A DNA stretch of 43,777 nt, taken from NCBI GenBank assembly GCA_016209985.1, contig JACQVB010000123.1:1-43777 (forward strand). The letters are read 5' to 3'. Origin of the DNA: Gemmatimonadota bacterium (GTDB taxonomy: Bacteria; Gemmatimonadota; Gemmatimonadetes; Gemmatimonadales; GWC2-71-9). The position numbers and the translations under genes were made by a program. This document shows, one piece after another, positions 23,167 to 31,880 of the stretch. The stretch's first letter is position 1. The number at the start of each line of letters is the position of its first letter. The notes under the pieces were generated by a model. It was not told the origin of the DNA. It saw only the letters and a program-made list of their open reading frames with translations, and made no database searches.

Positions 23167-26100
23167 CTAATCGGCCGCGGCAGGCTCTGTCACGTGCCGT
23201 TCCTCGGGAGCGCCCGTCAGCCTCTTTACCCACTTCGCGACCCAACTCCCGAAATCGTCGAGGTAGGTGTACACCACCGGGACCACGACCAGCGTCAGCA
23301 GGGTGGAGGTGATCAACCCCCCGATCACCGCGTGCGCCATGGGCGCCCGGAACTCCGAACCCGCGCCCAGTGCCAGCGCGGTCGGGAGCATGCCGAAGAT
23401 CATCGCGAGCGTGGTCATCACGATGGGACGCAGCCGCAGCTCGCCCGCGTCGATCAGTGCCTGCGAACGCTCGCTCCCCCGCCCCCGCGCCTTGTTGGCG
23501 AAGTCCACCAAGAGGATGGCGTTCTTGGTGACCAGACCCATCAGCATGATGACGCCGATCATGCTCATGATGTTGAACGTGCCCCGCGTGACCATGAGGC
23601 CCAGCATGACCCCGATCAGCGACAGCGGCAGCGAGAGCATGATCGCCAGCGGCTGGAGGAAGCTGCCGAACTGCGATGCCAGGATCAGATAGATGAACAC
23701 GATGGCGAGCGTCAGGGACTCGAGGATGTAGCCCACCGTCTCGATGAAGTCGGCCTGCTCGCCGCCGAAATTGAACCGGTAGCCCGGCGGCAGCTCGATC
23801 GTGGTGAGCCGTTTCTGCACCTCACCCGAGACCTCGGTGAGCGCGCGGCCCTGGTAGTTGCCTTCGATGGTCGCCACCCGCTCCAGATTGCGATGCTTGA
23901 TCTGCTCGGGCGCCGAGCTCTGCCGGATGGTGGCCACCTGCGCCAACGGGATCATCACCGGCACGCCCCGGCTGTCGAAGCGGCTCGCGGCCAGGGGGAT
24001 CCGCGCGATATCCGCCTGCGACGTGCGTGCTTCGGGCGCCAGCTGCACCACCACATCATGCGACAGGCCGTTCGGGTCTTCCCAGTTGCCCGCCTTCTGT
24101 CCGGCGAGGACCGGCCGAAGCCCCGCGCCGATCGAGCCGACCGAGAGACCGACATCCGATGCCAGGTTGCGATTGACGTCGATCACGAATTCCGGCTTGC
24201 TGCCCTCCAGACTCGATCTGAGCTCCACCAGTCCCGGGACGCTCCTGATGGTTTCCAGGGTGCGGTCCGAGACGGCTTGCAGCCGGGTGAGGTCCGGCCC
24301 TTCCAGATTGAGCTGAATCGGCGCCTGCCCGCCACCCATGCCCAGCTGCGTCACCCGCGCGGTCACACCCCTGAACCGCGGCGTCTCGGCGCGCAGGAAT
24401 GTCTCGAACTGCTGTTGGCTGCGTTTGCGGCTGTCTTTCGGGGTCATCTTGATGAAGATGAAGCCCTTGTTGACCGCGTTGTTCTGCTGGGCGCCGCCGA
24501 TGGTGGTATAGGTCAGCACCACTTCGGGTTGAACGCGGAGGAACCGGTCGACCTCCATTGCTTTCCCGGTGGTGTACTCGATGGAGGATCCCACCGGAGC
24601 CTCGAGGCTGAGCGCCGTTTGCTCCTGATCGGACTGGGGCATGAACTGGCCGCCGACCGCGCCGATGGCAAACAAGCTCATGGCGGCGACGAACGCGAAT
24701 GCCGCGATCCCCATGGTGGCCAGCCGGTGCGCCAGCGCCCAGCCGATCAGCCGGCGATAACGCTGGCCCAGACCCACGAACCACCGATTGAATTTCGCGA
24801 GCCCTCGGCCGATCGGCCCGCGGGGAGCGCCACCCTCCGCCTGCGGGTCGTACCAGAGCGAGGACAACATGGGATCGAGCGTGAAGGAGACCAGCAGCGA
24901 CACCAGCACGGCAAAGGCGACCGTGATGCCGAACTGGAAGAAGAAGCGGCCCACGATCCCTTTCATGAAGGCGACGGGGACGAATACCGCGATCACCGAC
25001 ATGGTAGTGGCGAACACGGCAAACCCGATTTCCGAGGTGCCGTGCCGCGCGGCGGCATAATGATCTTCTCCCCGCTCCACGTGCCGCACGATATTTTCCC
25101 GCACCACGATCGCGTCATCGATCAGAATGCCAATCGCGAGCGAGAGCGCCATGAGGGTCATGGTGTTCAGGGTGAAGCCGAACGCGTAGATCGCGAGAAA
25201 CGCCGAAATCACCGACACCGGCAGCGTCAATCCGGTGATCACCGTCGAGCGCCACGAATTCAGAAACAGGAATACGATGAAGACGGTGAGCAGCGCGCCT
25301 TCGATCAGCGTCGATTGCACGTCCTCCACCGAGTTACGGATCCAGGTGGAGTTGTCCTGGAGGATTTCCACCCGTACTCCGCCGGGAAGCGTCCGCGAGA
25401 GTTGCTCCACCGCCCGCTTGACCCCATCGGCCACGTCCACGGTGTTCGCGCCGGAGACTTTGCGCACCTCGAGCGCGACCCCGCGCTCGCCGTTGATGTA
25501 GGCCGCATCGCGCTCTTCTTCCTGAGTGTCCTCGATTCGCGCGACCTGGCCGAGGCGGACCGGAATGCCGTTCCGGACGACCACCGGTACCTGCTCGAAA
25601 TCGCGGGGATCCTTGATCCGTCCTTGCACCCGGACCAGGTTCTCGGCGCTGCCCCGCTCCACCCGCCCGGCCGGCACGTCGCTGTTGTCCCGTTCCAGCG
25701 CGCTCACCACCATGTCCGGCGAGATGCCCAGCGCCTCCATCCGGTCCGGCAGGAGCAGCGCGTGGATCTCGCGCTTGAGCCCGCCGACGACCGCGACGTT
25801 GCCGACTCCGGGAATGTTCTCGATCCGGCGGCTGATGACTTCGTCGGCCAGCTGGGTCAGCTCCCGGAGACGCCACCCTTCGCCGCGCACCGAGAGCGAC
25901 ATGATGGCCTGCTGGCTCGGGTCCGCGCGGGAGATGATCGGCGGGTCGATGTCCTTGGGCAGGTCCAGCCGGATACCGTCGATCTTCGCGCGCACGTCCG
26001 CCTGGGCGTCCATGACCTTGGTGCCCAGGTTGAACTGGACGAAGATCATGGAGAAGCCTTCGGTCGAGGTAGACTGCACCAGCTTGACACCCTGCACCGG

Positions 26101-26316
26101 ATTCACGGCTTCTTCGATTTTCTTGGTCACCTCGCGCTCGACCGCCTCGGGCGAGGCACCCGGGTAGCGGGTTTGCACGATGAGGAACGGGAACTCGACG
26201 TCCGGAAACGCGTCGATCGAGAGCCGCCGATAGGAGAACAACCCCAGCACCACCAACGCCATGATCATCATGGTGGCGAATACCGGCCGCTTGATTGAGA
26301 GATCGCTCAGGAACAT
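23167..26316 (-). CDS. RND efflux transporter permease (HAE1/AcrB family)
   Basis: 1049 residues, full length for an AcrB-type proton-driven inner-membrane pump. The N-terminus MFLSDLSIKRPVFATMMIMA is standard (TM1). The proton-relay Asp pair is visible in SLAIGILIDDAIVVRENI, and the TM10 Lys in MGLVTKNAILLVDFANKARG. Repeated porter-domain features are FPDVEFPFLIVQTRYPGASP and GVMLGLMVTRGTFNIMSM. It begins 4 bases after the adaptor stop and works with the adaptor and TolC-like protein encoded just upstream. Substrates cannot be predicted; lipophilic compounds are usual. The operon is headed by a TetR gene, so induction by a ligand of that repressor is likely. Confidence 0.96.
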   Translation of the reverse strand: MFLSDLSIKRPVFATMMIMALVVLGLFSYRRLSIDAFPDVEFPFLIVQTRYPGASPEAVEREVTKKIEEAVNPVQGVKLVQSTSTEGFSMIFVQFNLGTKVMDAQADVRAKIDGIRLDLPKDIDPPIISRADPSQQAIMSLSVRGEGWRLRELTQLADEVISRRIENIPGVGNVAVVGGLKREIHALLLPDRMEALGISPDMVVSALERDNSDVPAGRVERGSAENLVRVQGRIKDPRDFEQVPVVVRNGIPVRLGQVARIEDTQEEERDAAYINGERGVALEVRKVSGANTVDVADGVKRAVEQLSRTLPGGVRVEILQDNSTWIRNSVEDVQSTLIEGALLTVFIVFLFLNSWRSTVITGLTLPVSVISAFLAIYAFGFTLNTMTLMALSLAIGILIDDAIVVRENIVRHVERGEDHYAAARHGTSEIGFAVFATTMSVIAVFVPVAFMKGIVGRFFFQFGITVAFAVLVSLLVSFTLDPMLSSLWYDPQAEGGAPRGPIGRGLAKFNRWFVGLGQRYRRLIGWALAHRLATMGIAAFAFVAAMSLFAIGAVGGQFMPQSDQEQTALSLEAPVGSSIEYTTGKAMEVDRFLRVQPEVVLTYTTIGGAQQNNAVNKGFIFIKMTPKDSRKRSQQQFETFLRAETPRFRGVTARVTQLGMGGGQAPIQLNLEGPDLTRLQAVSDRTLETIRSVPGLVELRSSLEGSKPEFVIDVNRNLASDVGLSVGSIGAGLRPVLAGQKAGNWEDPNGLSHDVVVQLAPEARTSQADIARIPLAASRFDSRGVPVMIPLAQVATIRQSSAPEQIKHRNLERVATIEGNYQGRALTEVSGEVQKRLTTIELPPGYRFNFGGEQADFIETVGYILESLTLAIVFIYLILASQFGSFLQPLAIMLSLPLSLIGVMLGLMVTRGTFNIMSMIGVIMLMGLVTKNAILLVDFANKARGRGSERSQALIDAGELRLRPIVMTTLAMIFGMLPTALALGAGSEFRAPMAHAVIGGLITSTLLTLVVVPVVYTYLDDFGSWVAKWVKRLTGAPEERHVTEPAAAD

Positions 26317-26320
26317 GGGA

Positions 26321-27400
26321 TCAGCCCTCCCGGCCTACGACCTGTATCCGATCCCCGACCTTCATCCCCTCCGCCGGTCCCACCACCGCCGTATCGCCGG
26401 GACTTAACCCGCGCTTGATCTCGATCAGCGCGCGGATTTCGTCCGTGATACCGGTAAGAACGGTGCGCCGCGCGATTTTGCCGCCCTCGACCACCAGCAC
26501 GTAGGTGGTGTCACGGTCTATACGGACCCCGGTCCGCTGAACCGCCAGCGCGTCCCGCGCTTCCCGGAGCACCACGCGGCCCGAGGCGAAGAGGCCCCCC
26601 ACCAGGCGGTGCTGCGGGTTGGGAACGGTCACATAGACTTTCACCTGGCGGGTCGAAGGATCCACTGCGGCGTTCACCCGGGACACCTTGCCACTCACGC
26701 TCACCCCCTGCTCCACCCCCGAGACGAACAGCGCCACCGCCGAGCCGGCCCGCAGTTGTCCGGCGTATTGGGCCGGCACCGTGGCCTCGAACTCGAGCAT
26801 ATCGGTATTGACCAGCTGGAAGAGGTGGTCGCCATCCTTCACCCGATTGCCCGATTCGACCAGGCGTTGGGAGATGACGCCCGAGACCGGGGCGCGCACG
26901 CTGGCATCGGCCAGCCGTTTCTTGAACTGCGCTTCGTTCGCTTCGGTCGCCCGCAGGTTCAGCTCGGCATTCTCGACATCCTTCTGCGAGACCGCGCCTT
27001 CCGCCAGCAGATTCTTCATTCGCTCGTAATCGGCGGCGGCGATCCGGCGTTGCGCCTCGGCGCTGGCGGCCTGCGGCTCCAGGACGCTGGTTTGAAAGCG
27101 GGCCAGGACCTGCCCTTTTTTCACGGCGTCACCCTCGTTCACCAGCACCGCCTCGACCACCTCCGGGACCGGCGAAGCGATGCGAACGTCCACCGCCGGC
27201 GCGAGTGTGCCGGAGAGCGGGATGCCTTCGACCAAGTCGGCCTTCTCGACCGTGGCAACATCATTGGGGCCGAGAACTGAGGCCGGCGGCTGGCGGCCCT
27301 CGACCGTTTCGGCCTTTCCGGTTTCATCACGGCATGCCACCTGGCTGCCGAACAACGCCAGCAGCGCGAGTAGCGAGAGAGTATGCCAAGCGGTTTTCAT
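26321..27400 (-). CDS. RND efflux periplasmic adaptor (membrane fusion protein)
   Basis: 359 residues. The signal has a lipobox (SQVACRD), so it is probably a lipid-anchored adaptor. The order is a barrel-sandwich half-motif with GIPLSGTLAPAVDVRIASPV and VNEGDAVKKGQVLARFQT, an alpha-hairpin (about 105-160: AEAQRRIAAADYERMKNLLA), the second lipoyl half (ASVRAPVSGVISQRLVESGN), then beta-barrel and membrane-proximal domains ending GDTAVVGPAEGMKVGDRIQV. It bridges the RND pump to the outer-membrane channel. It overlaps the TolC gene by 4 bases (ATGA), so they are translationally coupled. Confidence 0.95.
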   Translation of the reverse strand: MKTAWHTLSLLALLALFGSQVACRDETGKAETVEGRQPPASVLGPNDVATVEKADLVEGIPLSGTLAPAVDVRIASPVPEVVEAVLVNEGDAVKKGQVLARFQTSVLEPQAASAEAQRRIAAADYERMKNLLAEGAVSQKDVENAELNLRATEANEAQFKKRLADASVRAPVSGVISQRLVESGNRVKDGDHLFQLVNTDMLEFEATVPAQYAGQLRAGSAVALFVSGVEQGVSVSGKVSRVNAAVDPSTRQVKVYVTVPNPQHRLVGGLFASGRVVLREARDALAVQRTGVRIDRDTTYVLVVEGGKIARRTVLTGITDEIRALIEIKRGLSPGDTAVVGPAEGMKVGDRIQVVGREG

Positions 27401-28863
27401 CGCTGAGATCCGAGTGGAATGTTGGTCATGCCGATCCTGGCGTCTGCTTCCGTGTTGGTCCCCGCCGCCTGTTCCAGCGGCTTCCGTTCCAGCGGCAACG
27501 GCCGGCCGAGCGCCCGCTCGAGCTGCGCCAGCGCCACGAGGTAGTCCAGCGTGCTCTGGGCCTGATTCATCCCCGCGCGCTGGGACAGGAGCCGCGCGTC
27601 GGACACTTCGAGCTGAGTCGAAAGACCGTTGGCATAGCGCACCGATGCCAGATGCATGGCCCGTTGGGCCTGCCGCACCGTCTCCCGCCGGGCGGCGAGC
27701 AACGAGCCGGTGCGCTTCAGCTCCGCCCTGGCCTGGGCCACGTCGAGAGCGACCTGTTCCTGTACGGTATTGCGCTGGGCGATCGCCTGATCCAGCGCCG
27801 CCTGGGCGCGGGCCACCTGCGCCTCGGTACGGAAACCATTGAATAGGGGAACCGAAACCTTGACCTGGGCATCCCAGTTACGCCGGAACCGGGCGTCGAA
27901 AGGCAGGACCTGCTGCGGGAACGCCTGTTCGGAGAAGGTCGACTGGACCGAGAGGCTGGGCCAGCGATCCGCCTTGGTGCCGCGGAGAATCTGCCGGCGG
28001 ACCTGTACGTTGGCCTCGGCCGCGGTCAGCGCGGGGCGCTCGATTTCCGTCGTGAGCGTCTCATCCGCCACGGCCGGAATGGTGCCGTCCGGAGCGGTGA
28101 GGGGAGTGGCGAGGGTCACGTCCTGATCTACGGGGACGTTCACCAGCCGTTTCAATTCGAGGATCGCAAGGTCGAGATTTCCCTGGGCCTGCACGACCAC
28201 CGGTTCCTGATTGGCCGCGTCTACCTGCGCCCGCAACAGATCGTACTCGGCGCGGGTGCCAGCCCGTTGAAAGAGCTGCACCTGGCGCAACTCCTTACGC
28301 GCTTCCTCGAGACCCGCCGTCGCCACCTCCAGGACCCGTTCCGCGTATTGCGCCTGGAGATAGGCCCGCTTCACCCGGAACGCCACGTCGGCCGCGGTTT
28401 CCCGCTGCTGCGCATCGGTCCCGGCACGAAACGCCTTCGCCGCCTTGAGGCCCGCACCCACCTTGCCGGCCGAGAACAGGAGTTGGCTGGCGGTGACCGA
28501 CGCGTTCCAGCTGTTGGGCGCGCCGAACGGAGAGTTCTTGAAAAGACTCGTGATCCCGGTATCCGAGCCGGTACCCGAACCAAGCGACTGGTAGATCGAG
28601 GCGAACTGCCGCGAGTAGGTCAGGCTGCCGTTCACCTGTGGCAGCGCGCCGGCCAACGCCTCGCGGACCTGGCCCTGCGCGTCCCGATACTGGGCCCGCG
28701 CCGTCTGCATTTCCTCGCCCTGGGCCAGCGCCCGGTTCACCGCCTCATCGAGTGTCAGCGTCACGGTCGTGGTACGGCCGGTTCCAGCCGGTCCCTGCGC
28801 CACGGCAGGCACCGCGAGAACCGTGACCAACCCGACCAGCAAAAACAGCCGTTTCAGTAGCAT
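27397..28863 (-). CDS. TolC family outer-membrane channel
   Basis: 488 residues from ATG 28863, which shares its A with the TetR stop (TGATG); GAGAAGGGA lies upstream. An in-frame ATG at 28884 is possible but lies inside tetR. The signal peptide runs to about AVAQG. Two OEP repeats follow: the first from LTLDEAVNRALAQGEEMQTA with NSWNASVTASQLLFSAGKVG, the second with NWDAQVKVSVPLFNGFRTEA. Long helices such as VARAQAALDQAIAQRNTVQE form the tunnel. It completes a tripartite efflux system with the downstream adaptor and pump. Confidence 0.94.
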   Translation of the reverse strand: MLLKRLFLLVGLVTVLAVPAVAQGPAGTGRTTTVTLTLDEAVNRALAQGEEMQTARAQYRDAQGQVREALAGALPQVNGSLTYSRQFASIYQSLGSGTGSDTGITSLFKNSPFGAPNSWNASVTASQLLFSAGKVGAGLKAAKAFRAGTDAQQRETAADVAFRVKRAYLQAQYAERVLEVATAGLEEARKELRQVQLFQRAGTRAEYDLLRAQVDAANQEPVVVQAQGNLDLAILELKRLVNVPVDQDVTLATPLTAPDGTIPAVADETLTTEIERPALTAAEANVQVRRQILRGTKADRWPSLSVQSTFSEQAFPQQVLPFDARFRRNWDAQVKVSVPLFNGFRTEAQVARAQAALDQAIAQRNTVQEQVALDVAQARAELKRTGSLLAARRETVRQAQRAMHLASVRYANGLSTQLEVSDARLLSQRAGMNQAQSTLDYLVALAQLERALGRPLPLERKPLEQAAGTNTEADARIGMTNIPLGSQR

Positions 28864-29483
28864 CAGTGAGTTCCCTTCTCGCATGCGGCCAATCCTGCTA
28901 CAGCGATGTCCAACCTGATGCGCAGCTCCTCTTTCAACGCGAACGGTTTCTGTTCCACCATCGCCCAGCGCATCAGGGTGTCGTGATAGACAGCGGCCAT
29001 GATCTCGTGGCCACGTTCAGGCGTGACATCGCGGCGGATTTCGCCGGTCGCCTGAAGATGGCGTATCAGCTTGACTCCCAGATCGTCCCAGCGACGGCAG
29101 AAATCGTCACGGTTGTCGTGAAACCGGCGATGGGCGTCGAGCGTGAGGTACTGCGCGAGTTTGGGGTCTTCCTCGTAGAATGACGCGAACTCGACGAACA
29201 TGTCGCGGATCTTGGCGAGCGCCGGGCCGCTGTCCTCGAGGATCGCGGCGGTTTTTTCCTCGGCCTCCTTGATCCACATCTCGGATAGGAAGCCCAGGAC
29301 CTCTTCTTTGCGCGGGAAGTAGTTGAAAAACGTGCCCTTCGCGACATCGGCCTTCTCGGCGATCTCGTCGATGGTGGTGGCCTCAAAACCTTTGTCGCGG
29401 AAGAGCTTGCACGCGCACTTAAAGATCTTCGCGCGAGTCTCTTCCTTCTTGCGTTCCCGACGCGAAAGCTCAAGATCTGTCAT
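28863..29483 (-). CDS. TetR family transcriptional regulator of the efflux operon
   Basis: 206 residues. The N-terminal helix-turn-helix (about 14-62) reads TRAKIFKCACKLFRDKGFEA, then TTIDEIAEKADVAKGTFFNY and FPRKEEVL, a standard TetR domain. The C-terminal ligand domain is helical and its ligand unknown. It is the first gene of the tetR-tolC-adaptor-RND operon, which is unusual because TetR pump regulators are often divergent. Autoregulation is likely: a perfect 12-bp palindrome, CCATAATTATGG, lies 43 bases upstream of the start. Confidence 0.93.
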   Translation of the reverse strand: MTDLELSRRERKKEETRAKIFKCACKLFRDKGFEATTIDEIAEKADVAKGTFFNYFPRKEEVLGFLSEMWIKEAEEKTAAILEDSGPALAKIRDMFVEFASFYEEDPKLAQYLTLDAHRRFHDNRDDFCRRWDDLGVKLIRHLQATGEIRRDVTPERGHEIMAAVYHDTLMRWAMVEQKPFALKEELRIRLDIAVAGLAACEKGTH

Positions 29484-29537: not shown

Positions 29538-29600
29538 ACTAGGGTCAGTTTTGAAGTGGGGTACAGTAATGGTGTGACAGGGGGGAGTCAAGTAAGGGGC

Positions 29601-29725
29601 GATGAAAGGGTCGGTAAGGATCGGTAAGAAACGGTAAGAGTCCGTAAGTGCAGAAGATCACGACGGCGACCGCGTGGCCGCCCCTTCGTGTCTATACCCT
29701 TACCGTCTCTTACCGACCCTTCATC
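29601..29725. repeat. Hairpin with 10-bp unit (GGTCGGTAAG)
   Basis: The left arm has units GGTCGGTAAG, GATCGGTAAG, AAACGGTAAG, AGTCCGTAAG (29609-29648), preceded by GATGAAA. The right arm is CTTACCGTCTCTTACCGACC (29699-29718) plus CTTCATC, the mirror of GATGAAAGGG. The right arm covers the stop codon of the secreted RidA gene, so it is a likely terminator. Confidence 0.88.
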
Positions 29726-30725
29726 TCACAATATTCGACAGTGCGGTCGCTTCTACAGAGATGAGCAGACCGGTCCGCGAGAGGGACTGCACGCCGACGA
29801 CCGTCACCACCGGCGGGTTCCGCCCGGCGAAGTAAGGTGAGCCCGCTGTGTGAATGATGTCGATGTCTTTCGGGTCGTAATTCACCACATAGATGGTGAG
29901 CCGGAGGACGTCGGCCGGGCCGGAGCGGGCCGAACTCAGAGCGGCCGTGAGATTGGCGAAGGCCTGCCGGGCCTGGGTAGCGAGATCTCCTTCGCCGACG
30001 ATTTTTCCGGAGGAGTCGGTCGCGACCTGTCCCGTCACATAGACATCACGCCCGACGCGGATGACGGCCGATCCCAATTCCGGCTTTGGCGCGCGGGTCT
30101 CGACAGCCGTCTTCTGCTCGACTGGCCCATCGTATCCGCCACCACCGAATCCCCGGCCAGGAGCGCCGCCCTCCACACCGGCGCGTCCCCCGCGTTCGGG
30201 ATACCACCGCCTCGCGTCCTGCCGGCGGCGATCGTCGGCGGCCTGCTCTTCGTCCTTTTTCCACTTCTTGTACTCTTTGATTTCGTCGGCGGTCAGGATC
30301 CTGGACAGGCCGTCTTCGAATTTGTTCTGGCGGTCCTTGAGGGTCTTGCCGAGCCGCTGCAGACGCTCGGCGAAGTACATGGCCCCATCGCGGTCGCCGT
30401 CATCGAGCTTGGCGTTCATCTCGTCCCGCATGGTCGTCGCGCTGTCGCGTTGCGGCCTGGTGGAGACCATGAATGAATCCCGCGCCTGGGCATAGCGCGT
30501 GGCTTCTTCCGGCCTGAGACCGAAGAGCGCAGTCGCGGTCGCCGAATCGGGCGGGCCATCGAGCTCCGGGCCGGGAAGCTCGGGCGCCAGAGGTATCTGC
30601 CCCCCGTAGGGCCGCCCGCCCACGCCACCGAACCCCCCTCCGAACCCACCGCGCTGTGCGTGCGCGGTTGTCACCAGCCCGACCGCGAGCGCAAGCGTGA
30701 CCATCATACCAGCTCGTGCATTCAT
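29721..30725 (-). CDS. Secreted Spy/CpxP-like helical module fused to a RidA-type domain (copy 2)
   Basis: 334 residues. The signal peptide ends near TAHAQR. A Gly-rich stretch leads to LPGPELDGPPD, then a helical region (about 65-180: LRPEEATRYAQARDSFMVST, LQRLGKTLKDRQNKFEDGLS, ILTADEIKEYKKWKKDEEQA). This resembles Spy/CpxP LTxxQ periplasmic chaperone repeats. After a Gly-rich linker comes a complete RidA/YjgF domain (about 218-334): VIRVGRDVYVTGQVATDSSG, ARQAFANLTAALSSA, VLRLTIYVVNYD. The catalytic Arg of true RidA (in PPARS) is replaced: it reads NPPVVTVVGVQSL. Enamine deaminase activity is therefore doubtful, while ligand binding between trimer subunits remains possible. It starts 17 bases after its paralogue. 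A repeat hairpin covers its stop. Confidence 0.88.
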   Translation of the reverse strand: MNARAGMMVTLALAVGLVTTAHAQRGGFGGGFGGVGGRPYGGQIPLAPELPGPELDGPPDSATATALFGLRPEEATRYAQARDSFMVSTRPQRDSATTMRDEMNAKLDDGDRDGAMYFAERLQRLGKTLKDRQNKFEDGLSRILTADEIKEYKKWKKDEEQAADDRRRQDARRWYPERGGRAGVEGGAPGRGFGGGGYDGPVEQKTAVETRAPKPELGSAVIRVGRDVYVTGQVATDSSGKIVGEGDLATQARQAFANLTAALSSARSGPADVLRLTIYVVNYDPKDIDIIHTAGSPYFAGRNPPVVTVVGVQSLSRTGLLISVEATALSNIVR

Positions 30726-30742
30726 ACCACCTCCTGGGACCG

Positions 30743-31750
30743 TTACCGCGGCTCGGCTCGATCGCGGCCGGCGCCCACGCCGGGTGCCCCCGCCAGGGCG
30801 GTCGCCTCGATCGAGATGAGCAGACCTTCGCGGTAGAGCGATTGGACGCCCAGGACCGTCAGCGCCGGGGCGTCACTCCGCGGCAGAAAGGCGGCGCCGG
30901 CCTCCCGGATCATTGCCAGGTCCTGCGGCTTGTAGTTGACGACGTAAATGGTCAGGCGAACCACATCGCTCGGTCTCGCACGGGCGGCCTGCAGCACCGC
31001 CGCGAGATTGGCAAACGCCTTGACCGTCTGGGCGTGAAGATCGCCCTCTCCCACGATGCTTCCCTCGGCATCCAGCGCTACCTGTCCGGCCGTGTAAATC
31101 ATGCGGCCGACACGCACGGCGGGCGAGCTCCCGGCCGGGCTTCCCACCGGCGCCGCGATCTCGGTTTTTTCCTCCCGTCCCGTGGTTCCACCCATCATGG
31201 GATTCCAGCGCATCGCGTCGCGCTTCTGCTGTTCGACGTCCGCCTCCTCCGCCTCCTTCTTCCATTTCTTGTAGATCCTGGTCTGATCGGCGGAGAGGAT
31301 CTTGAACAGCACGGCTTCTTCCCATTTGCCCTGCAGGTCCTTGAGCCCGCGCGAGATCTTGGTGGCGCGTTGGGCGTAGAAGAGTGCGGCCGCCCGATCG
31401 CCGCTCGACAGCTTGTCATTCATGATCTCGAGTTGCGTGTGGATACTGTCGCGCTGCGGCTTGGTAGCCGTCACGAACGAGTCGCGTGCCTGCTCGTATC
31501 GTTTCACCTGCTCATCGGTAAGCGTCAGCAGCTTGCGCACTTCGGTGGCATCCGGCGGTCCGTCGAGCTCCGGCCCGGGAAGGACCGGGGCGGAGAATCT
31601 CGGCATCTGGGCGCCCATCTCGCCCATGCCACCCGTCTCGCGTCCACCCATGCCGCCACGTTGTCCCCAAGCAGCATTCGGCAACAGCACCAATGCAAAC
31701 GCCATTGCCCATCCACATCTCACCACCGACGTCCTCCCGGCCTCGATCAT
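30743..31750 (-). CDS. Secreted Spy/CpxP-like helical module fused to a RidA-type domain (copy 1)
   Basis: 335 residues from ATG 31750; AAAGGGAGA lies about 6 bases upstream, which favours this start over the in-frame ATGs at 31756 and 31768. It has a signal peptide (to NAAWGQ) and a Gly/Met-rich segment. LPGPELDGPPD, shared with the neighbour, precedes a helical region (LLTLTDEQVKRYEQARDSFV, LKDLQGKWEEAVLFKILSAD, IYKKWKKEAEEADVE). The RidA domain has VRVGRMIYTAGQVALDAEGS, FANLAAVLQAARA and VVRLTIYVVNYK. The active-site Arg is again missing (DAPALTVLGV). The domain order matches the downstream gene, so this is a tandem duplication that has since diverged. A role in envelope stress is inferred from the helical module only. 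Confidence 0.88.
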   Translation of the reverse strand: MIEAGRTSVVRCGWAMAFALVLLPNAAWGQRGGMGGRETGGMGEMGAQMPRFSAPVLPGPELDGPPDATEVRKLLTLTDEQVKRYEQARDSFVTATKPQRDSIHTQLEIMNDKLSSGDRAAALFYAQRATKISRGLKDLQGKWEEAVLFKILSADQTRIYKKWKKEAEEADVEQQKRDAMRWNPMMGGTTGREEKTEIAAPVGSPAGSSPAVRVGRMIYTAGQVALDAEGSIVGEGDLHAQTVKAFANLAAVLQAARARPSDVVRLTIYVVNYKPQDLAMIREAGAAFLPRSDAPALTVLGVQSLYREGLLISIEATALAGAPGVGAGRDRAEPR

Positions 31751-31880
31751 CACCATTCTCCCTTTCATGGGACACCCCCGCGCCCGGATACCCCTACCCG
31801 CTTCACCCGTACCGGGCGCAAGTTACCGGATGTTACGTCGGGAAGCCCGGTTTGACACTCAGCAGGACTGCGAGGCTCGC

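Follow-up and report, generated by a model that had tools for sequence, protein, structure and literature searches.

Two adjacent genes in the genome of a Gemmatimonadota bacterium were found to encode proteins, exported by their sequence, in which a helical module, assigned by profile comparison to the LTXXQ/Spy-CpxP-ZraP-CnrX superfamily, is joined to a RidA domain that has retained its fold and is without the residues of the imine-deaminase pocket. The two-domain architecture of the two proteins, P0002 and P0001, is near certain. Both halves belong to known superfamilies; what is new is their joining, their export and the selection that acts on a RidA domain devoid of deaminase residues, so that the pair combines two known families in a domain architecture not seen before. 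An earlier note on this DNA knew of no described system like it, and a literature search of open-licence papers likewise returned no description of an exported RidA or of a RidA-LTXXQ fusion.

The window, meaning the whole stretch of 43,777 nucleotides that was analysed, corresponds to contig C76 in a genome of 4.6 Mb. P0002, the first gene of the pair (positions 30743-31768, minus strand), encodes 341 amino acids, or 335 if translation starts at the ATG at 31750. This start, where the earlier note had also placed the end of the region, is preferred because an AGGGAG ribosome site lies 7 nt ahead of it. P0001 (29721-30725, minus strand, 334 amino acids) follows in the same direction after 17 bp, and this gap harbours its AGGAGG ribosome site (30730-30735, minus strand), 4 nt before the P0001 ATG; the two genes therefore probably form a two-gene operon. 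The proteins are 49% identical across approximately 320 residues. Both open reading frames were recovered where the earlier note had placed them. In each, the signal peptide is followed by a Gly-rich stretch, a charged helical module of about 130 residues that starts with LPGPELDGPPD, a linker and a complete RidA (PF01042) domain, in this order. The signal peptides (minus strand 31664-31750 in P0002, with cleavage between AWG and Q36, and 30657-30725 in P0001, between AHA and Q24) were called by eye, from the hydrophobic core and the cleavage motif, rather than by a predictor; A33 and Q36 were invariant in the alignment of the fusion family. The proteins are accordingly predicted to be exported to the cell envelope or periplasm. 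In P0002 the signal peptide is followed by a Gly/Met-rich stretch (31592-31663, minus strand) which appeared disordered in the model, with a pLDDT of about 50.

The helical module occupies positions 31202-31591 in P0002 and 30201-30587 in P0001, both on the minus strand. Two LTxxQ-type motifs are present in each, LTDEQ and LSADQ in P0002 and the degenerate LRPEE and LTADE in P0001. A direct search with PF07813 gave no row for either protein, the curated cut-off not being reached, and when the window's own modules were scanned directly against Pfam and NCBIfam, they gave rows at chance level only. No match was found by a PDB sequence search with the module profile, nor any significant one by Foldseek with the module model. 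Homology to LTXXQ rests on profile-profile comparison and on more distant relatives. When the 12 fused modules were aligned by hhalign to 23 LTXXQ proteins from other Gemmatimonadota loci, the score was 96.0% with an E value of 3.9e-9 over 99 columns, and both LTxxQ motifs were in register. The range was 96.0-97.3%, with E values of 4e-9 to 2e-11 that refer to a comparison between two profiles only. A reversed LTXXQ profile scored 1.1% and column-shuffled profiles at most 0.2%. The resemblance to LTxxQ chaperones that the earlier note had read from the helices was thus recovered by this approach, and its structural reading proved sound. A search of the order with the module profile led to exported proteins of more distant kinship in which both LTxxQ motifs are clean, and of the 28 aligned members of the module family nine, from among these more distant ones, matched PF07813 (best E 3.5e-9). 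The module model was all-helical and confident (pLDDT 94.6), and its best structural matches included CnrX (Z 9.3), Salmonella STV (Z 9.2), ZraP (Z 7.9, 1.5 A over 79 residues), CpxP (Z 7.3) and NccX. Z scores of 7-9 fall within the helical-bundle background and are alone no proof of homology, and they agree with the sequence evidence for LTXXQ kinship. By these profiles the module is a member of the LTXXQ superfamily (PF07813 with Spy and CpxP, together with ZraP, CnrX and NccX, PF13801), with which it has in common the export, the helical module of about 100-130 residues and the spacing of the two motifs by about 75 residues, besides the profile match over 99 columns. It differs from that superfamily in being joined to RidA, in its partly degenerate motifs, in its near-neutral charge and absence of metal ligands, in PxxRDS and GPPD motifs of its own and in a direct Pfam score that is not significant.

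Other arrangements of LTXXQ sequences were noticed in the phylum. In L107, L110 and L112, from several Gemmatimonadota, LTXXQ matches lie at the end of open frames that are very long (1229-1385 aa), resemble TonB-dependent or Oar-type proteins of the outer membrane and would be a further LTXXQ fusion, and L075 (1174-1941) and L077 (1192-1935) are lipoprotein-like with two tandem LTXXQ repeats.

The RidA-fold domain is encoded at 30788-31162 in P0002 (residues approximately 203-327) and at 29733-30113 in P0001, again on the minus strand. PF01042 scores were 75.6 bits for P0002 and 64.9 bits for P0001 against a cut-off of 27.3, and the AlphaFold2 model of the domain matched solved RidA structures with Z 18.8 and 1.5 A over 119 residues. 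The scores for TIGR00004 (42 and 57 bits) were under the curated cut-off of 106 bits. The closest solved sequence was Yersinia YyfB, 5v4f (E 1e-21), with the YVVN...GVQ.L pattern in common. The active-site residues of TdcF are Tyr17, Ser30, Asn88, Arg105 and Glu120 (PMC5979572), and imine hydrolysis depends on Arg105 (PMC4433059). The catalytic Arg is absent from both copies, as the earlier note had claimed, its position being held by Leu303 in P0002 and by Val in P0001, and the pocket change is broader than the Arg alone. Tyr17 is replaced by Ser in P0002 and Gly in P0001, Asn88 by Arg288 and His, respectively, and Glu120 by Ser in both (Ser319 in P0002). The Ser30 position has Ala in P0002 and Thr in P0001, and is Ala also in the genome's own canonical RidA. 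Gly31 and Pro103 are retained in both window proteins. The RidA domain is therefore one that retains the fold without the imine-deaminase pocket residues.

The same loss extends to the relatives: Arg105 was absent from 34 of 34 aligned fused or exported proteins (12 fused, 22 exported), with Glu120 and Tyr17 gone together with it. The Asn88 position is occupied by Arg in all nine g28-type fusions, in G001 and in P0002, and by Arg or Lys in 22 of 22 exported relatives, the His of P0001 being the exception, and this near-invariant basic residue is possibly a new ligand contact. A replacement Arg elsewhere in the pocket, which the earlier note had named as speaking against its non-deaminase reading if it were functional, is thus present in sequence at the Asn88 position of P0002, and P0001 has His there. 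Such a replacement Arg, along with a RidA domain that is strongly constrained in related copies, as described below, would suit an exported enzyme that still catalyses imine hydrolysis or another reaction with a rearranged pocket. This is distinctly unlikely in view of the joint loss of Arg105, Glu120 and Tyr17 from all the fused and exported proteins, and because the genome already has canonical cytosolic RidA genes (L001 and L002) with Tyr17, Asn88, Arg105 and Glu120.

Compared with the Rid (YjgF/YER057c/UK114) superfamily, PF01042, the window proteins are alike in the complete fold, in Gly31 and Pro103 and in a Pfam score well over the cut-off, whereas they differ in being exported, fused to helices and replaced at Tyr17, Asn88, Arg105 and Glu120. 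Rid4-Rid7 also lack Arg105, with Trp in its place in Rid4 and Rid7, yet keep Glu120 (PMC4433059). Since this Glu is Ser here, these residues place the fusion outside all eight Rid subfamilies of that study. Arg105 is likewise absent from YyfB (5v4f) by alignment, but Rid4-7 and YyfB are stand-alone proteins for which export is not reported. Rid proteins without the Arg are well known as such and their roles are largely unknown (PMC4433059). The present one is exported, constrained in related copies and tied to a module akin to chaperones and sensors, which turns the role of Arg-less Rid proteins into a testable question, namely whether the RidA fold acts as a scaffold for oligomerisation or ligand binding.

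When 395 genomes sampled across the phylum were searched with a profile built from the entire fusion, 11 were found to carry the fusion, all from one family and distributed over four genera. Homologues that span the full length and have their parts in the same order were present in the 11 genomes at E 1e-127 or better, together with one partial copy (1e-105). Outside the phylum no fusion was found in a single pattern-based scan of genome contigs, a scan of low sensitivity. In a maximum likelihood tree of RidA domains the 12 sampled fusions formed a single branch (95/87) within a well-supported clade (98/94), of which the other members are unfused RidA proteins from the same family with signal peptides or lipoprotein-like signals. 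By this tree the sampled fusions share a single origin, which lies within an older group of RidA proteins that are exported and unfused. The closest clade members (L015-L025 and L135-L155) display the same pocket loss and the same Arg or Lys at the Asn88 position, and differ from the fusion in that many are lipoprotein-like, have no helical module and carry Asp at E122. No genome was seen to hold both a fusion and an unfused member of the exported clade among the matches seen, five candidates being scored per genome. Helical modules that are exported without being fused were detected in G004, G014, G022 and G104. In G004 and G022 the exported helical module and an unfused exported RidA are separate genes on different contigs.

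RidA proteins had been described in the earlier note as normally cytosolic. By sequence the export of the fusion holds, but export is not peculiar to it, because unfused RidA proteins that are exported or lipoprotein-like occur in many genera of this family, and the fusion hints at a role for them. An exported unfused RidA-type protein with Tyr17 and Glu120 kept and Arg105 changed to Ser was observed also in another family of the order (G059, L028 1528-2019), so that Rid export extends beyond the fusion's own family. A probable double-Rid protein was noted in G359 (C65, 3329-4060), where two RidA-type matches lie in one open frame of 490 aa. In a tree of the full-length sequences, P0002 groups with the only fusion gene of G001 (99/97) and P0001 is nearer to the g28-type genes. 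The tandem would therefore stem from an old duplication, or P0001 from a related lineage.

Selection was estimated in two close homologue pairs from the g28 genus, the window's own copies having no close homologue at hand. The dN/dS values of these pairs were 0.084 and 0.102 for the RidA domain and 0.176 and 0.085 for the helical module, as compared to 0.25-0.47 for the N-terminus and 0.35-1.2 for the short linker. Both domains are thus under purifying selection in the two g28 pairs (dN/dS 0.08-0.18), and the altered RidA domain is about as constrained there as the helices. The narrow distribution, 11 of 395 phylum genomes, could speak for a chance or decaying fusion that has no function, but that reading is already contradicted and hardly credible. 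A single origin with long persistence over four genera, two full-length copies kept in tandem, and low dN/dS in both domains next to a faster linker and N-terminus all argue against it. Full-length homologues in 11 genomes and purifying selection in two pairs place the architecture beyond chance.

The role of the fusion may be depicted as follows: After removal of the signal peptide, the protein would consist of a flexible Gly-rich arm followed by the helical module, a short linker and the RidA-fold domain. The latter would serve as a trimerising scaffold, perhaps still with small-ligand binding, and the trimer would gather three helical modules able to bind unfolded or stressed envelope proteins in a Spy-like manner, the whole protein being a multivalent holdase or stress buffer in the periplasm. 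Client binding may be tuned by a small ligand that occupies the altered pocket of RidA. That the proteins are periplasmic, probably trimeric binding proteins displaying three LTXXQ modules, of the kind of a holdase-type chaperone or stress buffer, is our preferred reading, held at somewhat less than an even chance. The RidA domain would probably trimerise, and the window proteins keep the bridge residues for it. In Arabidopsis RidA a K136-E182 salt bridge helps hold the trimer (PMC4960622), and it was equated by alignment in this analysis with K73-E122. These positions are Arg and Glu in both window proteins (Arg271 and Glu321 in P0002), Arg and Asp in G001, and mostly Lys and Asp in the unfused relatives. 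In the g28, g53 and g54 fusions both sides of the bridge are lost, by changes of K73 to Ala, Thr or Ser and of E122 to Gly, Ser or Ala, which counts against a trimer everywhere, and the trimer may therefore not persist in all fusions. Tyr17 and Arg105 are also oligomer residues in UK114 (PMC5979572); they are replaced in the window, while Pro103 and Gly31 are kept.

We infer a chaperone-like action of the helical modules from their kinship. Spy, which acts as a holdase in the periplasm, is built as a dimer from helical monomers and has a concave face that is basic (PMC8144458). The window modules are about neutral in charge (25 basic and 27 acidic residues in one copy, 23 and 22 in the other), which counts against a holdase, and this charge, together with the finding that no stress regulator is linked to the fusion gene in all members, counts against a plain copy of Spy. 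The RidA fold is itself known as a holdase, since E. coli RidA, a trimer, acquires this function after N-chlorination (PMC4284807). That protein is cytosolic, has a single domain and is activated by HOCl, and differs in this from the fusion, for which a holdase role is a prediction. Were the holdase reading true, the fusion would be a modular envelope chaperone of a build unlike the Spy dimer. As a more tentative possibility, exported dead RidA trimers with three Spy-like modules may constitute a new class of envelope chaperones or sensors in which the binding of a ligand or oxidant in the RidA pocket is coupled to client binding by the helices.

CpxP and CnrX pass signals to membrane partners. 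The proteins could likewise be periplasmic ligand sensors or solute-binding proteins, in which the rebuilt RidA pocket with Arg at the Asn88 position would bind an anionic small molecule and the helices would signal to a partner. This we consider rather unlikely. It agrees with the conserved Arg or Lys at a position that is an active-site residue in TdcF (PMC5979572), with the sensor CnrX as best-scoring structural match of the helices, with purifying selection on the RidA domain in two close pairs and with the TetR gene that comes right after the fusion gene in the window and in G001. On the other hand, P0001 has His rather than Arg at the Asn88 position, the modules lack a conserved His or Cys that could bind a metal, and no conserved membrane partner or sigma/anti-sigma gene was found near the fusion loci, whose neighbours vary by genus.

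No neighbour gene was common to all loci that could be a shared operon partner. The G001 locus has the neighbours of the window, with TetR just downstream of the fusion gene on one side and DUF72, EVE, hydrolase and ligase-like genes on the other, while the g28 genomes display only broad synteny at the fusion locus (exonuclease III, DMT transporter, kinase and others). Downstream of the pair, the window harbours outer-membrane, HlyD and RND pump genes at 23167-28884, the pump being of the AcrB type. In G001 (L037, 9102-10400) just the last approximately 219 residues of the RND pump were detected directly after TetR, and the outer-membrane, HlyD and most pump genes were missing. A role in an efflux pump was rejected because the TetR-RND neighbourhood was observed in this genus only and G001 retains no more than a remnant of the pump. 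The downstream RND genes and the superfamily relation to ZraP and CnrX could also point to a metal-handling protein of the ZraP/CnrX kind. Such a role is very improbable and was set aside because the ligands are lacking: the modules contain no Cys and 0-1 His. In addition, the pump is of the AcrB type and has shrunk to a remnant in G001, where the fusion is kept, and the RND neighbourhood is absent in other genera.

Between P0001 and the TetR gene, at positions 29590-29735, the window contains a palindromic array of 10-bp units (CGGTAAGNNN, in direct and inverted copies) which folds at -67.7 kcal/mol (z -6.6). Partial matches to this array, a multicopy REP-like repeat, occur at dozens of sites in the same genome (67 hits).
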